Assembly: GCF_003721515.1 (NCBI RefSeq)
Contig: NZ_RJJD01000002.1
Location: 1 to 64,000, forward strand
Length of the DNA stretch: 64,000 bases
Reading direction: 5' to 3'
DNA from: Rufibacter latericius
GTDB taxonomy: Bacteria > Bacteroidota > Bacteroidia > Cytophagales > Hymenobacteraceae
Position 1 is the first letter of the stretch; each line of letters starts with the position of its first letter. The position numbers and the translations under genes are program-made. The notes under the pieces were generated by a model, which saw only the letters and a list, made by a program, of their open reading frames with translations, did not search any database and was not told the origin of the DNA. Positions 45,200 to 59,177 of the stretch are shown here, piece after piece.

Positions 45200-45494
45200 G
45201 AAGGTGGGTTTAAAGCACGCCTTAAGCTAAAAGGTAAAGCCCAATGCTGCTGTGGGCAATTTCCCGGTGTTAAAAAAGGCTTTTAAATTAATGTTTAAAC
45301 GCGAAGTAAAGGAACTGGGCGCAATCTCCATAAAAGGCAAGCACAGTTCTTCGCTGGGTTGGTTTAAGAATTTAACTTAAAGCCTTTCGTCCATCCTTAT
45401 ACCCCGAGGGCGGGAGGTTTTAAGCTTAGTTTTCTGAAAACTTATGGAAAACGCAAAGATTGAAGAAGAGGGGCTTAAAAGAAAATAAAAAATC

Positions 45495-45880
45495 AATGAG
45501 CCTGTAAGCCGGGTTTTGTCCTCTGCCCGAAGGCAAATGGCTTATCATTTATCTAGGCCCGTCCTCACGGAGGGGCTCCATCAACCTACCCGCTGACATC
45601 GGACGAGCAGCCCTTAGCCTCCCCCGAAGGAGAGGCGCTGTCAGCCTATTTGGTCTTTCAACTCCTGAGGTTTACCCAGCCGGACTAGTCACCTAGCCGC
45701 TGGTGCGCTCTTACCGCACCTTTTCGCCCTTACCGGCAAGCCGGCGGTTATTTTCTGTGGCACTGGCTGTCACCTGGCCGTCACCCGCCAGGTGCCTTCC
45801 CGTTAGGAAGCAGGATGCTCTGCGTTGCCCGGACTTTCCTCCCCGCCCGAAGGCGCAGCGATAAGCCGGCTCACTGATTT
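45495..45880 (-). ncRNA. rnpB: RNase P RNA
   Basis: Read on the minus strand, the sequence contains the conserved GAGGAAAGTCCGGGC near the 5' end, CCACAGAAAATAACCGCC, GGGTAAGGGC-type and GTGCGGTAAGAGCGCACC helices, and the 3' region ACAAAACCCGGCTTA that pairs with the 5' part in the P4 core. The length of about 385 bases and the arrangement fit bacterial type A RNase P RNA, the catalytic component of tRNA 5' processing. The ends are approximate: the paired 5' GAGCCGGCT and 3' AGCC segments set the limits. The remaining spacer between 45200 and 46119 shows no gene. Confidence 0.93.
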
Positions 45881-50001: not shown

Positions 50002-50943
50002 TTAAAAGTAGAGCGCATGCGCTTTCCAGCCTTTCCTTCTGTTGTACTCCAAGGCCGGTGCGGGAAATTTGAAAATTGACAGCACATAAAACGTACTCTT
50101 CAGAAACTTGCTGTGGGTAGGAATGGCTTGCCAGTTCAGGTCCACGCTGAGGTAATACTGCCGGTACGCTTTCAGCCCGATGGCTCTGTTGGCGTCTGCA
50201 TCATTATAGACCATTTCCTCAGCCCCAAACCCCACCGCGGGGTTGAGCCACTTTGGGAATTTGCTTTGACTGGGAAGGAACTTTGCTAGGTCTACGCTGA
50301 ACCAGTACGTGTGTCCGTTGTAATCTTTCAGGAACTCCTCGGAGAAACCTTTTCCTAAAACATTGGGGCGCATTGAAGCATAACTAGTACGGTGGAAGGA
50401 ATATTTAGGTATGATCCGATTCTCGCCCCAGGCAAGTTGTTGCGTAATGACCGCCAGAGAACCGGCGGCATTAGCCGCGATGTCAGACAGAGAAGCGCCG
50501 TAGTCTGGGGAGCGGCCGTCAAAGTATTCAATGGGGGTTTGCAGAACGAAGCCCAAGGCTCCACCGTACCAGATTGCTTTTTTCTCGGGCACGCCGGCCT
50601 TCCGAAGCAGGTCCACCCCCAGCCGGCTTTCGTGGAAAGCACCCCATAAATGGCCCGCTTTGTCTATCTGCTTCCACTCCCGTGAATCATCAAACCAATG
50701 GAAACGTGTCTGTTCTTTTTCCTGGTACCAGGCTTGGTTAAGCAGTGCCAAACCCCCAACGTAGACCGTGGCAACCCCAGCGGCAAGCAAAGGAAGTCGG
50801 CGGCTGAAGGGGTTGAGGGTGTCAGGGGCGGCTTGGGTTTCCTGGGGGTTGGTAGCTTGAGCCTGGGTTTCCAAAGAAGAAAAACCTAGGGTACAAACCA
50901 GCAGGAGAGGGAAAGCAAGTTGATTCAAAGTTCTGCGCAACAC
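50002..50943 (-). CDS. DUF2279 (YfiM-like) exported protein
   Basis: This 313-residue protein starts at GTG 50943 or the following TTG; no ATG is suitable. It has a signal peptide ('LAFPLLLVCTLGFSSLETQA'), a hydrophobic segment ('LLAAGVATVYVGGLALLNQA', about 50-70) and the DUF2279 pattern ('QIDKAGHLWGAFHESRLGVD', 'YGGALGFVLQTPIEYFDGRS', 'DYGASLSDIAANAAGSLAVI'). It is predicted to be periplasmic or membrane-associated. The function is unknown. Confidence 0.8.
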   Translation of the reverse strand: MLRRTLNQLAFPLLLVCTLGFSSLETQAQATNPQETQAAPDTLNPFSRRLPLLAAGVATVYVGGLALLNQAWYQEKEQTRFHWFDDSREWKQIDKAGHLWGAFHESRLGVDLLRKAGVPEKKAIWYGGALGFVLQTPIEYFDGRSPDYGASLSDIAANAAGSLAVITQQLAWGENRIIPKYSFHRTSYASMRPNVLGKGFSEEFLKDYNGHTYWFSVDLAKFLPSQSKFPKWLNPAVGFGAEEMVYNDADANRAIGLKAYRQYYLSVDLNWQAIPTHSKFLKSTFYVLSIFKFPAPALEYNRRKGWKAHALYF

Positions 50944-51013
50944 GGGTTAAAAGTACGGAAAGCAAGGGCATTTTACGTGTTTTAAGGAAAATGCATCTTT
51001 TTTGGGTTCTTTA

Positions 51014-51044
51014 TTTGGAAATCATCTTCAGGCTCCTACATTTG
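51014..51044 (+). promoter_or_regulatory. Bacteroidota-type promoter of the trp operon
   Basis: TTTG (51014-51017) and TACATTTG (51037-51044) are separated by 19 bases and match the known Bacteroidota -33 TTTG and -7 TAnnTTTG elements. Transcription would begin at about 51048-51051, essentially at the ATG of the first leader peptide, so the leader mRNA would be nearly leaderless. Confidence 0.75.
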
Positions 51045-51048
51045 CAAC

Positions 51049-51102
51049 ATGAACAAGACGCAATTCACGCATAACGCCTGGTGGCACACACGTCAAAACT
51101 GA
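51049..51102 (+). CDS. trp leader peptide 1
   Basis: This 17-residue open frame, MNKTQFTHNAWWHTRQN, has tandem Trp codons at 51079-51084. It starts within a few bases of the predicted transcription start and ends two bases before the antiterminator segment of attenuator 1. It is the sensing element for charged tRNA-Trp. It resembles what I recall of the Bacteroid-trp RNA motif reported upstream of trp genes in this phylum. Confidence 0.88.
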   Translation: MNKTQFTHNAWWHTRQN

Positions 51103-51103
51103 T

Positions 51104-51175
51104 GGGTGAACCGCTTGCTGTGCAGAAATGCAGTTAAATACAAGGCTCGGATTCACCCGGGCCTTTGGTGTTTTT
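51104..51175 (+). promoter_or_regulatory. trp attenuator 1 (antiterminator and terminator)
   Basis: Terminator: AAGGCTCGG (51142-51150) pairs with CCGGGCCTT (51157-51165), nine pairs with one G-U, followed by TGGTGTTTTT. Antiterminator: GGGTGAACCG (51104-51113) pairs with CGGATTCACCC (51148-51158), ten pairs with one bulged A. The two structures share 51148-51158 and exclude each other. A ribosome finishing leader 1 would cover the antiterminator's 5' strand; one stalled at the Trp codons would not. Confidence 0.85.
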
Positions 51176-51203
51176 AAACCGTTCAGAAGTAAATAAAGAG
51201 AAA

Positions 51204-51263
51204 ATGAAAAAGGTAAAGGAAAGCGGAATGATTTGTTGGTGGCACCAATCGGAAGATTCGTGA
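51204..51263 (+). CDS. trp leader peptide 2
   Basis: This 19-residue open frame, MKKVKESGMICWWHQSEDS, has tandem Trp codons at 51237-51242. It starts 38 bases after the stem of terminator 1, and its stop codon TGA (51261-51263) is the first triplet of the second antiterminator. Apart from the shared WWH it is unlike leader 1, so the two arose independently or diverged strongly outside the sensing codons. Confidence 0.86.
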   Translation: MKKVKESGMICWWHQSEDS

Positions 51264-51342
51264 ACAGCAGGCCATTGCCTACCCTAAACTTGCCCAAACT
51301 ATAAAAGGCTTGCTGTTCATCTCAAACGGCAAGCCTTTTTTT
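51261..51342 (+). promoter_or_regulatory. trp attenuator 2 (antiterminator and terminator)
   Basis: Terminator: AAAGGCTTGCTGTT (51304-51317) pairs with AACGGCAAGCCTTT (51325-51338), 14 pairs with one G-U, ending in seven T just before trpE. Antiterminator: TGAACAGCAGGCC (51261-51273) pairs with GGCTTGCTGTTCA (51307-51319), 13 pairs with one G-U. They compete for 51307-51317. The 5' strand begins at the stop codon of leader 2, so a terminating ribosome would block it. Confidence 0.88.
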
Positions 51343-51350
51343 ATACGTTT

Positions 51351-52763
51351 ATGAAGACTTATACCCTACAGACGCAATACCGCCAACTCCTCGCCGACAC
51401 CGTGACGCCGGTAGGCATCTACCTGCAACTGCGCGACAAATACCGTAACTGTCTGCTGCTGGAAAGCTCTGACTACCACGGCCACGAAAACAGCTTCACC
51501 TACATCTGCTGCGAACCCATCGCGGAGTTTAAGTTGAAAGACAACGTGCTACGCCGTTCATACCCAGATGGAACCCTAGACGAGCAAGTACTGGAGCAGA
51601 AACGGGATGCGGTGAAGTTACTGCAAGCGTACTGTGAAACTTTCAAGACCGGGGCTGGACCTTTCGGGTTTATTCAGAACGGATTGTTTGGGTACATGTC
51701 GTTTGAGGCGGTGCAGTATTACGAGCAGGTGGAGATGCGCCAGAAGGAGACGGCGCACGCTGAGTTACCCGAGATCCTGTACCAAGCTTTCCGGTTCGTC
51801 ATCGCCATTGACCATTTCAAAAACGAGCTCTACATTTTTGAGCACACTTTCGGAAAACAGCCCTCAAACGAAGGATTGGACGAACTGGAGACGCTCATCC
51901 GCAACAAGAACTTCCCGGTATTCCATTTCTCCACCGCCGGTGAAGAAGCCACGAACCAAACCGATGAGGAATTCCTGCGCGTCATTGAAGAAGGCAAGCG
52001 CCACTGTCACTTGGGTAATGTGTTTCAAATTGTACTTTCCAGGCGGTTCTCCCAAGCTTTCCAGGGCGATGAATTTAACGTGTACCGCGCATTGCGCTCC
52101 ATTAACCCGTCGCCGTACCTGTTTTACTTTGACTACGGCAACTTCAAGATCTTCGGGTCTTCGCCAGAGGCACAGCTGACCATTAAAAACGACACCGCCA
52201 CCATTTACCCCATTGCGGGTACGTTCAAGCGTACCGGCAACGATGCCGCCGATGCCGAACTTGCCCAGAAACTCTACGACGACCCCAAGGAGAACTCAGA
52301 GCATGTGATGCTGGTAGACTTGGCCCGCAACGACTTAAGCCGTCACGGCGACAACGTGCAGGTGGAGGTGTTTAAAGAGGTGCAGTATTACTCCCATGTA
52401 ATCCACCTGGTTTCTAAAGTGACCGCCAACCTGCCGCAGGCCCACGGCTCGGTGCAGATGGTAGCAGACACGTTTCCGGCCGGTACTTTGTCGGGGGCTC
52501 CCAAGCACCGGGCCCTCACTTTGATTGATGAACTAGAGCCCACCGGCCGGGGTTATTACGGAGGATGCATTGGGTACCTGGGTTTCGGGGGTGATTTCAA
52601 CCACGCCATCATGATCCGCTCATTCCTGAGTGTGCAGAACAAATTGTACTTCCAGGCCGGGGCCGGGGTGGTAGCCAAATCTGACACCAGAAGCGAACTT
52701 AACGAAGTACACCACAAACTTGCCGCCCTTCGCAAAGCCCTTGAGAAAGCAGCAACTATTTAA
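51351..52763 (+). CDS. trpE: Anthranilate synthase component I
   Basis: This 470-residue enzyme is the chorismate-binding subunit that makes anthranilate with TrpG-supplied ammonia. The catalytic segments are 'IVLSRRFSQAFQGDEFNVYR', 'YPIAGTFKRTG', 'VDLARNDLSRHG' and 'FPAGTLSGAPKHRALTLIDE'. It is the first structural gene of the trp operon and starts 8 bases after the U tract of attenuator 2. A palindrome (52774-52813) separates it from trpG. Confidence 0.95.
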   Translation: MKTYTLQTQYRQLLADTVTPVGIYLQLRDKYRNCLLLESSDYHGHENSFTYICCEPIAEFKLKDNVLRRSYPDGTLDEQVLEQKRDAVKLLQAYCETFKTGAGPFGFIQNGLFGYMSFEAVQYYEQVEMRQKETAHAELPEILYQAFRFVIAIDHFKNELYIFEHTFGKQPSNEGLDELETLIRNKNFPVFHFSTAGEEATNQTDEEFLRVIEEGKRHCHLGNVFQIVLSRRFSQAFQGDEFNVYRALRSINPSPYLFYFDYGNFKIFGSSPEAQLTIKNDTATIYPIAGTFKRTGNDAADAELAQKLYDDPKENSEHVMLVDLARNDLSRHGDNVQVEVFKEVQYYSHVIHLVSKVTANLPQAHGSVQMVADTFPAGTLSGAPKHRALTLIDELEPTGRGYYGGCIGYLGFGGDFNHAIMIRSFLSVQNKLYFQAGAGVVAKSDTRSELNEVHHKLAALRKALEKAATI

Positions 52764-52773
52764 AGAAGGAAAG

Positions 52774-52813
52774 GTGTTTCAGGCACGTTTTTAGAAAAGC
52801 AGCCCTGAAACAC
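52774..52813. repeat. Palindrome inside the trp operon (trpE-trpG)
   Basis: The arms GTGTTTCAGG and CCTGAAACAC are perfect over 10 bases with the family-type interior. Its place between two genes of one operon argues that family members do not always stop transcription. It could reduce downstream expression or protect mRNA ends. Confidence 0.7.
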
Positions 52814-52854
52814 TCACAAGAGAAGACCCAGACAAACGACAAACCCTTTTTACC

Positions 52855-53478
52855 ATGAAAATCCTTGTCTTAGATAATTACGATTCTTTCACCTACAACC
52901 TGGTGCAGCTGCTTCGGGAACTAGGCTACGCCGAACAACTGGAAGTATTCCGCAACGATCAGATCACCCTGGAAGAGGTGGAGAAATATGACGTGATTTT
53001 ACTTTCTCCGGGTCCTGGTGTGCCCAGCGAAGCCGGTATCATGCCCGCTCTCTTGAAAAAATACGCCCCAACCAAGCGCATCATGGGCGTTTGCTTAGGC
53101 CACCAAGCCATCGCAGAAGCGTTTGGGGCGGAGTTGTCTAACCTGAAAGAGGTATTCCATGGGGTGTCTTCCACCATGCGGGTGGTCAACAACAATGAGC
53201 CCATGTTCAAAGAGTTGCCATCTACCTTCAACGTAGCCCGTTACCATTCCTGGACCGTAGTGCCTGAGTCGGTGCCAAGTGAGTTGAAAATCACGGCGGT
53301 AGATGAGAACGGCGAGGTGATGGCGCTGCGCCACAGCCAGTATGACGTGTGTGGTGTGCAGTTTCACCCAGAGTCCATCCTGACGGATTACGGCAAAGAC
53401 ATGCTGCAGAACTGGTTGCTGAACCCTACCAAGCGCGTAAATCAATGGACAACCTTTGCGGCTTCCCTGATCCTATGA
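52855..53478 (+). CDS. trpG: Anthranilate synthase component II (glutamine amidotransferase)
   Basis: This 207-residue class I amidotransferase has 'LDNYDSFTYNLVQLL', 'LSPGPGVPSEAG', the nucleophile Cys in 'MGVCLGHQAIAEAFG' and 'VQFHPESILT' with the catalytic His and Glu. It supplies ammonia to TrpE. Its stop TGA overlaps the trpD start in the sequence ATGA, indicating translational coupling. Confidence 0.95.
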   Translation: MKILVLDNYDSFTYNLVQLLRELGYAEQLEVFRNDQITLEEVEKYDVILLSPGPGVPSEAGIMPALLKKYAPTKRIMGVCLGHQAIAEAFGAELSNLKEVFHGVSSTMRVVNNNEPMFKELPSTFNVARYHSWTVVPESVPSELKITAVDENGEVMALRHSQYDVCGVQFHPESILTDYGKDMLQNWLLNPTKRVNQWTTFAASLIL

Positions 53479-54461
53479 AACAGGTGCTGCAACAATTGAT
53501 TGAACACAAGGCCCTCTCTAAAGATACTGCCAAACAGGTGCTCATCAACATTGGGCGGGGGCAATACAACACCAGCCAGATGGCTGCTTTCATGACCGTC
53601 TACCTCATGCGCAACATCACCGTGCATGAGCTGGAGGGTTTCCGGGAAGCCATGTTGGAACTCTGCCTGGTACCAGATTTGGGTACCGACCAGGTGATTG
53701 ACCTCTGCGGCACGGGCGGCGACGGCAAAGATACCTTCAACATCTCCACGCTGGCTTCCTTTGTAGTGGCCGGGGCCGGGTACAAGGTGGCGAAACACGG
53801 CAATAACGGCGTTTCTTCTATCTGCGGCTCGTCAAACGTAATGGCGCACCTGGGCTACACCTTTACAAACGACAGCACGGTTCTTAAGTGCAAACTGGAA
53901 GCCGCCAATATTTGCTTTCTACACGCCCCGCTGTTTCACCCGGCCATGAAAGAAGTTGCGCCCATCCGGAAGGACCTAGGCGTAAAAACGTTCTTTAACA
54001 TGCTGGGACCCATGATCAATCCGGCTAAACCGCATTTTCAGATGGTGGGGGTGTTCAGCCTGGAGTTGCTCCGGTTGTATACTTATCTGTACCAGCAGAC
54101 CGGTAAACGTTTTGTGTTGCTGCACGCGTTAGACGGTTATGATGAGGTTTCCTTAACAGGACCTTTCAAAATAGTGACGCCGCAGGGCGAGCAGATTCTT
54201 CACCCCTCGGACTTAGGATTGCCTACTTACCAGGAAAGCGACTTGGCAGGAGGAGAAACCGTGGAGGAATCTGCGGCTATCTTCATGAACGTACTGGAAG
54301 GTCGGGGAACCGCTGCCCAACAGGATGCCGTGGTGGCGAACGCGGGCCTAGGCATTTACTGTGCCGATGAGCGCCTGACTTTACCAGAATCTATCCAGAA
54401 AGCCCGCCACTCGCTCAACAACGGCTTAGCCCTAAACTCTTTTCTAACCTTATTAGCGTAA
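53475..54461 (+). CDS. trpD: Anthranilate phosphoribosyltransferase
   Basis: This 328-residue protein starts at the ATG overlapping the trpG stop (ATGA). An earlier in-frame start inside trpG is rejected. Motifs are 'DLCGTGGDGKDTFNISTLAS' (PRPP-binding), 'KHGNNGVSSICGSSNVMAHL', 'FLHAPLFHPAMKEVAPIRKD' and 'GPMINPAKP'. It joins anthranilate to PRPP, the second step of the Trp branch. Confidence 0.95.
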   Translation: MKQVLQQLIEHKALSKDTAKQVLINIGRGQYNTSQMAAFMTVYLMRNITVHELEGFREAMLELCLVPDLGTDQVIDLCGTGGDGKDTFNISTLASFVVAGAGYKVAKHGNNGVSSICGSSNVMAHLGYTFTNDSTVLKCKLEAANICFLHAPLFHPAMKEVAPIRKDLGVKTFFNMLGPMINPAKPHFQMVGVFSLELLRLYTYLYQQTGKRFVLLHALDGYDEVSLTGPFKIVTPQGEQILHPSDLGLPTYQESDLAGGETVEESAAIFMNVLEGRGTAAQQDAVVANAGLGIYCADERLTLPESIQKARHSLNNGLALNSFLTLLA

Positions 54462-54469
54462 CGTCCCAT

Positions 54470-55297
54470 ATGTCATCCACCATCTTAGATAAGATCATCG
54501 CCCACAAACGCCAGGAAGTTGCCGACCGTAAAAGCTTGGTGCCAACTGCTTTGCTGGAGCGCAGCATTTATTTTTCTTCACAACCCGTGTCGCTCCGTAA
54601 ATATGTGCAGCGCCCGGACCTGAACGGCATCATTGCCGAGTACAAGCGGAAGTCACCTTCCAAAGGTACCATCAACGCTTATGCTCCAGTGGAGCGCACC
54701 TCCATTGGGTACATGCAGGCGGGCGCCTCGGCTCTGTCAATCCTGACCGATGCTACTTTCTTCGGTGGCAAGAACGAGGACCTAACCACCGCGCGCAAAT
54801 TCAATTTCTGCCCCATACTGCGGAAAGATTTCGTGGTGGAAGAGTACCAGATCCTGGAAGCCAAGTCCATCGGGGCCGATGCCATTTTGTTGATTGCGGG
54901 GGTCCTAACAAAAGAGGAAGTCAGCCAGTTGGCTCAGTTTGCACATTCGTTGGGCTTGGAGGTGTTGTTAGAGGTTCATAACCGCGAAGAACTGGAGCGC
55001 ACCATCACCCCGCACGTAGACCTGATTGGCGTGAACAACCGTAACCTGCACGATTTCTCGGTTGATATCAAAACCTCCGTGGAACTGGCACCCTTTATCC
55101 CAAACGATTTTGTGAAAGTATCGGAGAGTGGATTGAGTGAGGCCGCCAGCATTCTGGAACTTCGCCAGCACGGTTATGAAGGCTTCCTGATGGGGGAGAC
55201 CTTCATGCGCCAGAGTCGCCCGGAGAAAGCTTGCGCCGCATTTGTAGAGGAACTGAAGAAGCTGAATGTCATCAAAAGCCTTTCTTTTTCGGTTTAA
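54470..55297 (+). CDS. trpC: Indole-3-glycerol-phosphate synthase
   Basis: This 275-residue TIM barrel has 'AEYKRKSPSKGTIN', 'LRKDFVVEEYQILEAKSIGA', 'LLEVHNREELER', 'GVNNRNLHDFSVD' and 'VSESGLSEAA'. It closes CdRP to indole-3-glycerol phosphate. It starts 8 bases after trpD, and its stop codon lies in the first arm of a palindrome. TrpF is a separate gene here rather than fused. Confidence 0.95.
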   Translation: MSSTILDKIIAHKRQEVADRKSLVPTALLERSIYFSSQPVSLRKYVQRPDLNGIIAEYKRKSPSKGTINAYAPVERTSIGYMQAGASALSILTDATFFGGKNEDLTTARKFNFCPILRKDFVVEEYQILEAKSIGADAILLIAGVLTKEEVSQLAQFAHSLGLEVLLEVHNREELERTITPHVDLIGVNNRNLHDFSVDIKTSVELAPFIPNDFVKVSESGLSEAASILELRQHGYEGFLMGETFMRQSRPEKACAAFVEELKKLNVIKSLSFSV

Positions 55298-55326
55298 GGC
55301 CGAATTCTTAAAAAGAGGCCTAAAGC
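55292..55326. repeat. Palindrome inside the trp operon (trpC-trpF)
   Basis: GTTTAAGGCC and GGCCTAAAGC flank a T/A-rich interior. The first arm includes the trpC stop codon. Like the copy between trpE and trpG, it is intra-operonic. Confidence 0.55.
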
Positions 55327-55393
55327 AGTCGAGATTATCTCTTGATAGTTGAATTCATACCAGTCCTAAACGGACAGCCTAAATACAAAAAGA

Positions 55394-56029
55394 ATGCCCT
55401 ACCAGAACCTTAAGATAAAAGTTTGCGGCATGAAGTACAGCGAGAACATAACCGAGCTCCTGTTTCTTCAGCCAGATTACGTGGGGTTTATCTTTTACGA
55501 AAAGTCGCCCCGGTTCATCTCAACACAGGTGGACGTTTTCTCGTCGGTTTTCCCGAAGGGGACCCAAAAAGTAGGGGTGTTCGTGGACGAGGAAGCTTCC
55601 GTGATTCTGCAGAAAGTGACCGATCTTGGGTTAGGAATGGTGCAGTTACACGGGCATGAATCGCCAAAGGAGTGCCAGGAATTGAGAGAATCGGGACTCA
55701 CGGTGATGAAGGCGTTCAGGGTAGGCGCTGGGTTTGACTTCTCGCAATTACAGGAATACGCGCCTAGCTGTGATTATTTCCTGTTTGATGCCAGCGGGGA
55801 AAACCCCGGTGGAAATGGGGTTCGGTTTAATTGGGAACTGCTAAAGGAGTACCAATTAGGAGTGCCTTTTTTCCTGAGCGGAGGCATTGACTTGGAGCAC
55901 ATCGCAGAGATAAAGGCCCTGCGTTTGCCTCAGCTGTATGGTTTGGATTTGAACAGCAAGTTTGAAATTCAGCCTGGCCTGAAGGACATCAACCGCCTGA
56001 AACAATTTTTTGAAGAGATTAAAGCATAA
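55394..56029 (+). CDS. trpF: Phosphoribosylanthranilate isomerase
   Basis: This 211-residue TIM barrel has 'IKVCGMKYSENITELLFLQP', 'DYVGFIFYEKSPRFIS', 'VGVFVDEEASVI', 'LFDASGENPGGNGVRFNWEL' and 'FFLSGGIDLEHIAEI'. It isomerises PRA to CdRP between the TrpD and TrpC steps. The gene is preceded by about 95 bases that include a palindrome. Confidence 0.94.
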   Translation: MPYQNLKIKVCGMKYSENITELLFLQPDYVGFIFYEKSPRFISTQVDVFSSVFPKGTQKVGVFVDEEASVILQKVTDLGLGMVQLHGHESPKECQELRESGLTVMKAFRVGAGFDFSQLQEYAPSCDYFLFDASGENPGGNGVRFNWELLKEYQLGVPFFLSGGIDLEHIAEIKALRLPQLYGLDLNSKFEIQPGLKDINRLKQFFEEIKA

Positions 56030-56098
56030 GCATTGTCATTAAAGGAGTTATAAAACAATTTGCCTGTTTTCTGGCTTCTGGATTTATACGAAATAGGA

Positions 56099-57295
56099 AT
56101 GGAATACGGAGTTAATGAACGTGGCTATTATGGCCAATTTGGCGGGGCTTTCATCCCGGAAATGCTTTACCCCAATGTAGAGGAACTGCGGGAAAAGTAT
56201 CTGACCATCATCCAGGAACCCGAGTTCCAGCAGGAAATGCAGGAGCTGCTCCGCGACTATGTGGGTCGGCCCACGCCGTTGTACCTGGCCAAGCGGCTTT
56301 CAGAACGGTACAACACCAAGATTTACCTCAAGCGGGAAGACCTGAACCATACCGGGGCCCACAAAATCAACAACACGGTGGGGCAAATCCTGCTGGCGAA
56401 ACGTCTGGGCAAGAAACGCATCATCGCTGAGACCGGGGCCGGACAGCACGGCGTGGCCACCGCTACCGTTTGTGCCCTGGCTGGTCTGGAGTGCATTGTG
56501 TACATGGGCAAGATAGATACCGAGCGGCAACGACCCAACGTGGAGAAAATGCGCCTGCTGGGAGCTACAGTGGTGCCGGTGACCTCTGGTTCGCAGACGC
56601 TGAAAGATGCCACTAACGAGGCCATCCGGGACTGGATCAACCACCCCGAGGACACGCATTACATCATCGGCTCGGTAGTGGGTCCGCACCCGTACCCGGA
56701 TATGGTGGCCCGTTTTCAGTCCGTTATTTCAGAAGAGATCAGAAAACAGTTGCTGGAGAAGGAAGGACGCGAGTTACCTGATTACGTGGTGGCCTGCGTG
56801 GGTGGTGGTTCTAATGCAGCCGGTGCCTTTTACCATTTCCTGGATGAACCTGAAGTGAAACTGATTGCGGTGGAGGCGGCAGGGCTGGGCGTAGACTCCG
56901 GCCATTCGGCGGCTACTTCAGTGCTGGGGAAAACCGGTATCATCCACGGAAGTAAAACCCTGCTCATGCAAACCGAAGACGGCCAGATCACCGAGCCTTA
57001 TTCAATCTCCGCTGGCCTGGATTACCCCGGAGTGGGCCCTCAGCACGCCCATTTGGCGCAGACCGGCCGAGCCCGCTTCATCGCCATCACCGATGCCGAT
57101 GCCATGGAAGCCCTGCGTGAGTTGAGCCGCCTGGAAGGCATCATTCCGGCCATTGAAAGCTCTCACGCCCTTGCAGCTTTGAAAGAAATCAAGGCTTGTC
57201 CCCAGGACGTTGTCGTTCTGAATTTATCTGGCCGCGGCGACAAAGACCTTAATACCATTCTTACTTACTTTGAACAACAAGATGGAGCACAATAG
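56099..57295 (+). CDS. trpB: Tryptophan synthase beta chain
   Basis: This 398-residue protein starts at the ATG at 56099 ([20 protein letters not shown]); a TTG further upstream gives a non-conserved extension. The PLP Lys lies in '[14 protein letters not shown]', the phosphate-binding loop in '[15 protein letters not shown]', and '[15 protein letters not shown]' forms the active site. It condenses indole with serine. It overlaps trpA by 14 bases. Confidence 0.95.
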
Positions 57296-58061
57296 ACTCA
57301 CGCGCCTGTTTCGGGAGAAAAGCGGAAATCTACTCAACATTTACTTTACCGCCGGTTACCCCAAATTAGAAGACACCGTCACTATTCTGGAGGAGCTGGA
57401 AGCAGCCGGGGCAGACCTGGTAGAGATTGGAATGCCTTTCTCAGACCCGCTCGCCGATGGTCCCACTATTCAAGCCAGCAATCAGGTAGCACTGGAGAAT
57501 GGCATGTCCATCAAGATGTTATTGCAACAACTGGCGCAAGTTAGGGAGAAGGTGACGTTACCTATTATCTTGATGGGTTACCTGAACCCGGTGATGCAGT
57601 ATGGCTTTGAACGTTTCTGCGAAGACGCAGCTAAAGTAGGTGTGGACGGCCTCATCCTTCCTGATTTGCCTTTTGCCGAGTACGAAGAAGAGTACAAGCC
57701 CATCCTGGAGAAACACGGCCTCAGCCTCATTTTCCTCATCACGCCCCAGACCTCAGAGGACCGCATCCGGCAGATTGACGCGCTCACCAATTCATTTATT
57801 TACATGGTTTCCAGTGCCAGCACTACCGGAAGCCAGGTACAGACATCAGAAGCCCAGGAAGCGTATTTCTCCAAGGTGAAAAATCTGGGTTTGAAGAATC
57901 CTTTACTTATCGGGTTTGGGATTAGCGACAAGCCTTCGTTTGAAATGGCCTGCCTTTCGGCCCATGGAGCCATCATTGGTAGTGCTTTTATCAAAGCCTT
58001 GCAGCAACCACAGGAGGTGCGCCAAAACGTAAGATCGTTCCTGAAGACGCTCAGGAATTGA
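57282..58061 (+). CDS. trpA: Tryptophan synthase alpha chain
   Basis: This 259-residue protein has its ATG at 57282 inside trpB, 14 bases before the trpB stop; an in-frame TTG four codons upstream is possible but less likely. '[18 protein letters not shown]', '[20 protein letters not shown]' and '[19 protein letters not shown]' carry the catalytic Glu and Asp. It releases indole from indole-glycerol phosphate and channels it to TrpB. It is the last of the seven trp genes. Confidence 0.95.
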
Positions 58062-58163
58062 TGTGAGAGGGAGAAGAGGCTGGCATTTAATCTGGGTAAA
58101 CCCCTTTGACTTTGCTTTACCGCTTCTTTGAGCTAATCATTTCGCACTACTTAACTTAAAAAG

Positions 58164-59177
58164 ATGCTCATTCAATTACAACAAGATATACGTCCCGAGG
58201 ACAAAGCGGCCATTGTCAACAAGGCCAAAGAGCTGAAATACAAAACCACCGAAGTGGTGACCCAGGCGGGCCATTACCTGGTAGGCACCGGAAAAGCCGA
58301 TTTTGATGTGCGCGCCATCGGGCATTTGCAGGGCATCAAAGACATCCACATTGTGTCGGATGATTATCGGCTGGTTTCCAGAAAATGGAAGGTAAACCCC
58401 ACCGTCATTGATTTCGGAGACGGGCTGAAGGTGCAGGAGGGAGACCTGACCATCATGGCCGGACCCTGCTCCATTGAGAACGAAGACCAAATTGAGAAAA
58501 CCATCCAGCACCTGGTGTCCCAGAACGTGCGCTTCATGCGCGGAGGCGTGTTCAAGCCGCGTTCCTCGCCGTATTCCTTCCGCGGGTTGGGGTTGGAAGG
58601 CCTTAAACTCTTCTATGACATGTGCCGCGCCCACGGCATCAAGATCGTGACCGAGGTGATGCAGGTGTCGCAGATTGCGCCTATGGAGCCGTACACCGAT
58701 GTTTTCCAGGTGGGAGCCCGCAATACCCAAAACTTCAACCTACTTGATGAACTGGGCAAGGTAGACAAACCAATCCTGCTAAAGCGCGGCATCTCCGGTA
58801 CCATTGACGAACTGTTGTACTCAGCAGAATACATCTTCTCGGGCGGAAACGAAAAGCTGATGCTTTGCGAACGAGGCATCAGAACCTACGAAACCGCTAG
58901 TCGAAACACCCTTGACCTGAACGCCATCCCCATCCTCAAAGAAAAGACGCACTTACCTGTGATTGTGGATCCTTCTCACGGAATCGGAATACGGGAATAT
59001 GTGGAGCCCATGGCTTTGGCCGCTATCATGGCTGGCGCCGACGGCATCATCTACGAAACCCACGAGAAACCCGAGGAAGCGGCGTCTGATGGGGCGCAAA
59101 CCCTCAGCTTCAATGAGTCTGAGCGCCTGATTCAAAAGATGAGAAAGACTTTCGCGCTTCGGAAAGAACTGGTGTAA
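58164..59177 (+). CDS. aroF: DAHP synthase, AroF type with ferredoxin-like N-terminus
   Basis: This 337-residue protein has an N-terminal ferredoxin-like regulatory domain (1-68) and a KDOPS-like DAHP synthase barrel with 'MAGPCSIENEDQIEKTI', 'MRGGVFKPRSSPYSFRGLG' and 'IVDPSHGIGIREY'. In Thermotoga-type enzymes that N-terminal domain gives feedback inhibition by aromatic amino acids. It follows trpA by 102 bases on the same strand and probably belongs to the trp transcript. It is a different subfamily from the DAHP synthase at 40279. Confidence 0.92.
   Translation: MLIQLQQDIRPEDKAAIVNKAKELKYKTTEVVTQAGHYLVGTGKADFDVRAIGHLQGIKDIHIVSDDYRLVSRKWKVNPTVIDFGDGLKVQEGDLTIMAGPCSIENEDQIEKTIQHLVSQNVRFMRGGVFKPRSSPYSFRGLGLEGLKLFYDMCRAHGIKIVTEVMQVSQIAPMEPYTDVFQVGARNTQNFNLLDELGKVDKPILLKRGISGTIDELLYSAEYIFSGGNEKLMLCERGIRTYETASRNTLDLNAIPILKEKTHLPVIVDPSHGIGIREYVEPMALAAIMAGADGIIYETHEKPEEAASDGAQTLSFNESERLIQKMRKTFALRKELV

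Follow-up and report, generated by a model that had tools for sequence, protein, structure and literature searches.

Two predicted tryptophan leader-peptide attenuators in series upstream of trpE in Rufibacter latericius

A tandem leader region precedes the trp operon

Within the window, the 64,000-nucleotide stretch of Rufibacter latericius DNA analysed here, the segment at 51049-51342 is flanked on one side by a divergent ORF (50002-50943, minus strand) and on the other by trpE, which starts at 51351. The genes that this segment would regulate follow on the plus strand at 51351-59177, and were assigned from their ORFs and best NCBIfam matches as trpE, trpG, trpD, trpC, trpF, trpB, trpA and a DAHP synthase gene (trpE_most, trpG_papA, trpD, TrpC, phosphoribosylanthranilate isomerase, trpB, trpA and PRK08673 DAHP synthase, respectively), the trpE_most match scoring below the cut-off of that model. 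This trpEGDCFBA-aroF array amounts to a full Trp-synthesis operon together with the step by which the aromatic pathway begins. Among named relatives, the closest TrpE proteins come from Rufibacter sp. SYSU D00344, at 93% identity, and from R. immobilis, at 89%. Elsewhere in the window, a gene for RNase P class A RNA is present on the minus strand at 45489-45877 (271.5 bits).

Two short reading frames, both on the plus strand, occupy the segment before trpE, and in each of them adjacent Trp codons are followed by a His codon. Leader peptide ORF 1 (MNKTQFTHNAWWHTRQN, 51049-51102) has its Trp codons at 51079-51084 and its stop codon at 51100-51102. Folding places antiterminator 1 at 51104-51158, where GGGUGAACCG (51104-51113) pairs with CGG-A-UUCACCC (51148-51158) through positions 51148-51150 and 51152-51158, and folding and conservation together place terminator 1 at 51142-51175, as a hairpin (51142-51165; -15.2 kcal/mol, z -3.2) with the tail UGGUGUUUUU (51166-51175). 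Duplex folding also points to a possible protector hairpin (1:2, 51080-51115) between the Trp codons and the antiterminator arm of module 1, in which GGUGG (51080-51084) and CAC (51087-51089) would pair with GUG (51106-51108) and CCGCU (51111-51115); its predicted energy is about -9.7 kcal/mol, and it recurs across the genus.

Leader peptide ORF 2 (MKKVKESGMICWWHQSEDS, 51204-51263) has its Trp codons at 51237-51242 and its stop codon at 51261-51263, and is preceded by A-rich sequence without a promoter box. In the predicted antiterminator 2 (51262-51318; -20.0 kcal/mol, z -4.4), GAACAGCAGGCC at 51262-51273 overlaps the stop codon and pairs with GGCUUGCUGUUC at 51307-51318. Terminator 2 (51305-51342), identified by folding and covariation, comprises a hairpin at 51305-51337 (-18.6 kcal/mol, z -7.7) and a U7 run at 51336-51342. 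The geometry of the two modules is closely similar, in that the antiterminator and terminator are mutually exclusive in each, 19 nt separate the Trp codons from the start of the antiterminator arm (51084 to 51104, and 51242 to 51262), and the arm begins either 1 nt past the leader stop codon (51104, module 1) or inside it (51262, module 2). Moreover, two ORFs of the form ATG..Trp-Trp..stop were found in 0/4000 dinucleotide shuffles of the intergenic region, and one such ORF in 0.9% of them. An earlier note on this DNA had described both leader ORFs with their antiterminators and terminators, and its features and coordinates agree with the sequence, with our folding and with the conservation described below.

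Both modules are conserved in trpE-bearing Rufibacter

Our sample of the genus comprised 16 genomes, 15 of which carry a true trpE. The two leaders, each a short ORF with adjacent Trp codons before the trp operon, are present in all 15 of these genomes, with five codons separating the Trp pair of leader 1 from its stop codon in every case, and with the ATG column and TGGTGGCA of leader 2 likewise retained in 15/15. More generally, the WWH triplets, Trp codons, antiterminator arms and terminator stems are kept while the linkers drift. In two genomes (L010 and L012) a one-base deletion carries leader 2 beyond the arm, and the extended leader resembles the geometry of the single leaders of Pontibacter. 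As a separate observation, the long-form Pontibacter leader ORF runs through the antiterminator arm.

We used two covariance models, R2 for module 1 and R1 for module 2 together with the single modules of Pontibacter. R2 has exactly one match (107-131 bits) in each of the 15 genomes, and R1 matches before trpE in the same 15 (89-120 bits); the R1 match in R. latericius scores 120 bits at 51228-51340, the model having been built partly from this same sequence. Because R1 and R2 derive from these sequences, the informative results are the count of one match per genome, its place before trpE, and the absence of any R1 or R2 match from the genome that lacks trpE. R1 misses module 1 and R2 misses module 2. 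R1 matches of about 35 bits elsewhere in the genome were not counted as extra copies. The search in related genomes that the earlier note had suggested thus finds both modules before trpE in 15/15 trpE-bearing Rufibacter and neither in the genome without trpE. In that genome (G010), a member of the Rufibacter group, paralogues are the only trpE matches, and both attenuator modules are absent.

Structural conservation was examined separately for each stem. In terminator 2, 99.6% of alignment cells are paired, and the 14 cells changed on both sides were matched by 0/500 shuffles. The core of antiterminator 2, consisting of four pairs, is invariant in 15 Rufibacter and seven Pontibacter sequences and is without covariation. 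For antiterminator 1, 98% of cells are paired in the 15 genomes and 7/10 pairs never vary. Since the stems of module 1 are nearly invariant within Rufibacter they lie beyond covariation testing, and antiterminator 1 is conserved rather than supported by covariation.

These observations bear on the possibility that module 2 alone works as a Trp attenuator, and that module 1 gates weakly, is in decay, or serves chiefly to keep ribosome and polymerase in step. The stem of terminator 1 is nearly invariant and its U-tract is imperfect, reading GG[U/C]GUUU with the interruption present in 15/15 genomes, so that terminator 1 may leak more than terminator 2. In addition, antiterminator 1 (-19.6 kcal/mol) has a z score of just -1.3 against shuffles, and scores between about -1 and -3 when tested as a duplex. 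Nevertheless, the strong conservation of module 1 (89% mean column identity, with the single R2 match in all 15 genomes) is not what decay would leave, and the Trp codons, the spacing to the stop codon and both alternative stems have been retained. We regard this possibility as unlikely.

Taken together, and with genus-wide conservation as the decisive point, these data indicate that 51049-51342 very probably contains a series of two transcription attenuators of the leader-peptide type, each sensing charged tRNA-Trp via a Trp-Trp codon pair. The earlier claim of two full modules in series, on what is predicted to be one transcript, is supported by the 15/15 conservation, the compensatory changes in terminator 2 and the antiterminator cores, as well as by the lone promoter-like box considered next.

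A lone promoter-like box lies before leader 1

A promoter is predicted at 51014-51044 on the plus strand from consensus and conservation, with TTTG (51014-51017) as a -33-like element and TACATTTG (51037-51044) as a -7 box of the form TAnnTTTG, which is the consensus for the -7 element of promoters in Bacteroidetes (PMC7366714). TAnnTTTG is located exactly 4 nt upstream of the leader 1 ATG in 15/15 Rufibacter. Were initiation to occur at the usual distance from this box, the leader 1 mRNA would have almost no 5' UTR. Leaderless mRNAs, or those with very short leaders, make up a few percent of the total in two studied members of the phylum. Across our wider survey of trpE upstream regions, a -7 box is found 4-11 nt before the start codon of the Trp leader in 80/175 first leaders, which, with the constant 4 nt of Rufibacter, suggests that leader-peptide mRNAs are leaderless or nearly so.

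With a lone box before leader 1 and none between the modules, a single transcript is predicted to carry both, so that they should act in series. We also considered that the modules might be used singly, with an internal promoter or processing site yielding transcripts that contain only module 2 in some condition, as might be imagined from the A-rich spacer between the modules and from the position of module 2 directly before trpE, where single modules are found elsewhere. TAnnTTTG is absent between the modules in 15/15 genomes, however, in a scan whose scope was this box and not minor or alternative-sigma promoters, and we consider such separate use very unlikely. It is highly improbable that hairpin 2 affects mainly the translation of trpE, or that leader 2 supplies trpE with ribosomes, instead of an action on transcription. 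A U run follows the hairpin in 15/15 genomes, as an intrinsic terminator would require, the 87 nt from the leader 2 stop to the trpE start are far from the 11-14 bp peak (PMC4833913), and the hairpin is far from trpE in many other genera. In favour of an effect on translation, the U run ends (51342) close to the trpE start (51351), with short spacing throughout the genus, and reinitiation has been put forward for leader genes of Bacteroidetes, at much shorter stop-start distances (PMC4833913).

Paired modules in other lineages and the origin of the pair

To place the Rufibacter pair in context, our survey covered 202 distinct trpE upstream regions, mostly from Cytophagales with some from Sphingobacteriales and Flavobacteriales. 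Outside Rufibacter (187 regions) one module was detected in 157, none in 26, and two in four, one of these four being false. The true doubles belong to Fulvivirga marina (L124), Flammeovirgaceae UBA1842 (L151) and a genome of another family (L177, from G330), and all three have two leaders and two terminators, with complementary arms for each. The remaining region (L238, from G208) was rejected; its first ORF lacks an antiterminator, and its own duplex is weaker than those of shuffled sequences. A search of 390 genomes of the order for paired TGGTGGCAY motifs gave mostly matches outside trp leaders, L177 being the only case beyond Rufibacter that was recognized as real. Doubles elsewhere may be under-counted, because the U-tract and tail rules of the detector missed terminator 1 in 4/15 Rufibacter.

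Alignment of the Rufibacter modules with each other is weak (z 2.9), while module 2 aligns better with the single modules of Pontibacter (z 6.7) and Xanthocytophaga (z 11.0). Adhaeribacter aligns with module 1 at z 4.3 versus z 1.2 for module 2, and the module 1 sequence is specific to Rufibacter. Given the weak likeness of the two modules and the closeness of module 2 to other genera, the pair would seem to be old or of mixed origin rather than a fresh duplication, and the earlier view that no recent duplication took place holds. The history of the modules is, however, not firmly drawn from sequences as short as these.

Relation to known RNA families

The earlier note had also mentioned a Bacteroid-trp RNA motif in this phylum. 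Bacteroid-trp (RF01692; Weinberg 2010, PMC2864571) is a Trp leader RNA of Bacteroidetes to which the Rufibacter elements look related, its consensus sharing with them both a terminator arm of the form AAAAGGCUUG and an arm resembling GAACAGC; membership does not follow, since module 2 scores 20.9 bits against a gathering threshold of 49 and module 1 is absent from the matches listed. Moreover, RF01692 is a single element, and Rufibacter has two. At its gathering threshold the model recognizes 9/10 loci from Flavobacteriaceae and 0/10 from Cytophagales and Sphingobacteriales. Because it misses Trp leaders outside Flavobacteriaceae among the families tested, the family is under-detected.

The architecture is also comparable to that of the E. 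coli trpL attenuator (RF00513), whose mode of action the Rufibacter units should share and which has a short leader with adjacent Trp codons, a stop codon before the competing arm, and an antiterminator set against a terminator. A protector hairpin in the stretch from the Trp codons to the arm is possibly a further feature common to trpL and module 1. Module 1 scores 20.6 bits with the RF00513 Trp_leader model, below its gathering value of 41. E. coli combines one such module with the repressor TrpR, whereas Rufibacter has two in series and no TrpR was found; no TrpR homologue was detected in 16 genomes of the genus by a search that recovered E. coli TrpR as a control. Similarly, TRAP was not detected in the R. 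latericius genome examined, the control search having found B. subtilis TRAP. With respect to T-boxes, cmscan of the window at gathering thresholds returned RNase P alone, and a permissive scan of 50940-51400 listed none.

Proposed mechanism and significance

Given the usual extent of a ribosome footprint, the arm would be expected to stay accessible while a ribosome is stalled on the Trp codons, and to be covered once the ribosome is at the stop codon. From the sequence, we infer the following promoter use, leader translation, termination, Trp response and multiplied repression. Polymerase would initiate from the box that immediately precedes leader 1. With Trp plentiful, the ribosome would reach the leader stop codon and cover the antiterminator arm, allowing the terminator to form; with Trp scarce, it would stall on the Trp codons about 20 nt before the arm, so that the antiterminator forms and polymerase passes. 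At module 2 the decision would be repeated by a freshly initiated ribosome, and trpE would be reached solely by transcripts that clear both gates, as a result of which the effects of the two gates would multiply. Since attenuation is the sole Trp-specific control that we detect, the second gate would deepen repression, and the two gates could replace the absent TrpR.

In its fullest form, which we put forward tentatively as plausible rather than probable, this model is a two-gate ribosome-sensing cascade operating without a Trp repressor, in which a tightly coupled, leaky, near-leaderless gate 1 and a strong, independently initiated gate 2 would give multiplied repression and a steeper response to falling charged tRNA-Trp than one attenuator, the layout having perhaps arisen several times in Cytophagales.

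To our knowledge, leader-peptide attenuation, a textbook mechanism, is known almost entirely from single units, and our searches of the open-access literature turned up no earlier description of two leader-peptide attenuators that stand in tandem and respond to a single amino acid. The Rufibacter region therefore looks like a known type of switch in a new serial layout that may be able to tighten control. The Salmonella mgtCBR leader has been called a singular example of tandem attenuators (PMC3641672), and there too two short ORFs in one leader mRNA govern transcription into an operon. The two signals of mgtCBR, however, are ATP and proline, whereas in Rufibacter Trp would be the signal for both modules, each of which has a separate terminator. 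The other near precedent is provided by the tandem T-box riboswitches found before trpE in Bacillota, where a sensor of charged tRNA is present two or three times in series ahead of the same genes (PMC12452182). T-boxes bind tRNA directly, while the Rufibacter sensor would be the translating ribosome, making the Rufibacter pair a ribosome-based counterpart; that tandem T-boxes precede these genes in a different phylum suggests that the layout is convergent. Moreover, a genus-wide pair for the same amino acid, where no TrpR is found, makes the benefit of a second gate testable as deeper repression, a steeper response or lower noise.

Leader features across the survey

Several further features emerged from the surveyed leaders. 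The distance from the last Trp codon to the leader stop is bimodal in about 200 Bacteroidota loci, at about 5-7 or about 12-14 codons. A His codon follows the Trp run in most surveyed leaders, and its usage is 51 CAC/4 CAT where the arm holds GTGA and 25 CAC/28 CAT where it does not, these counts being uncontrolled for genome relatedness. The association of CAC with a GTGA arm is as pairing between the Trp codon region and the arm would predict, as though the His codon had been retained because it can pair within the RNA and not because of the residue it encodes. The spacer motif CUAUG, considered as a potential pause site, is present in 21/191 modules compared to 10.7 expected.
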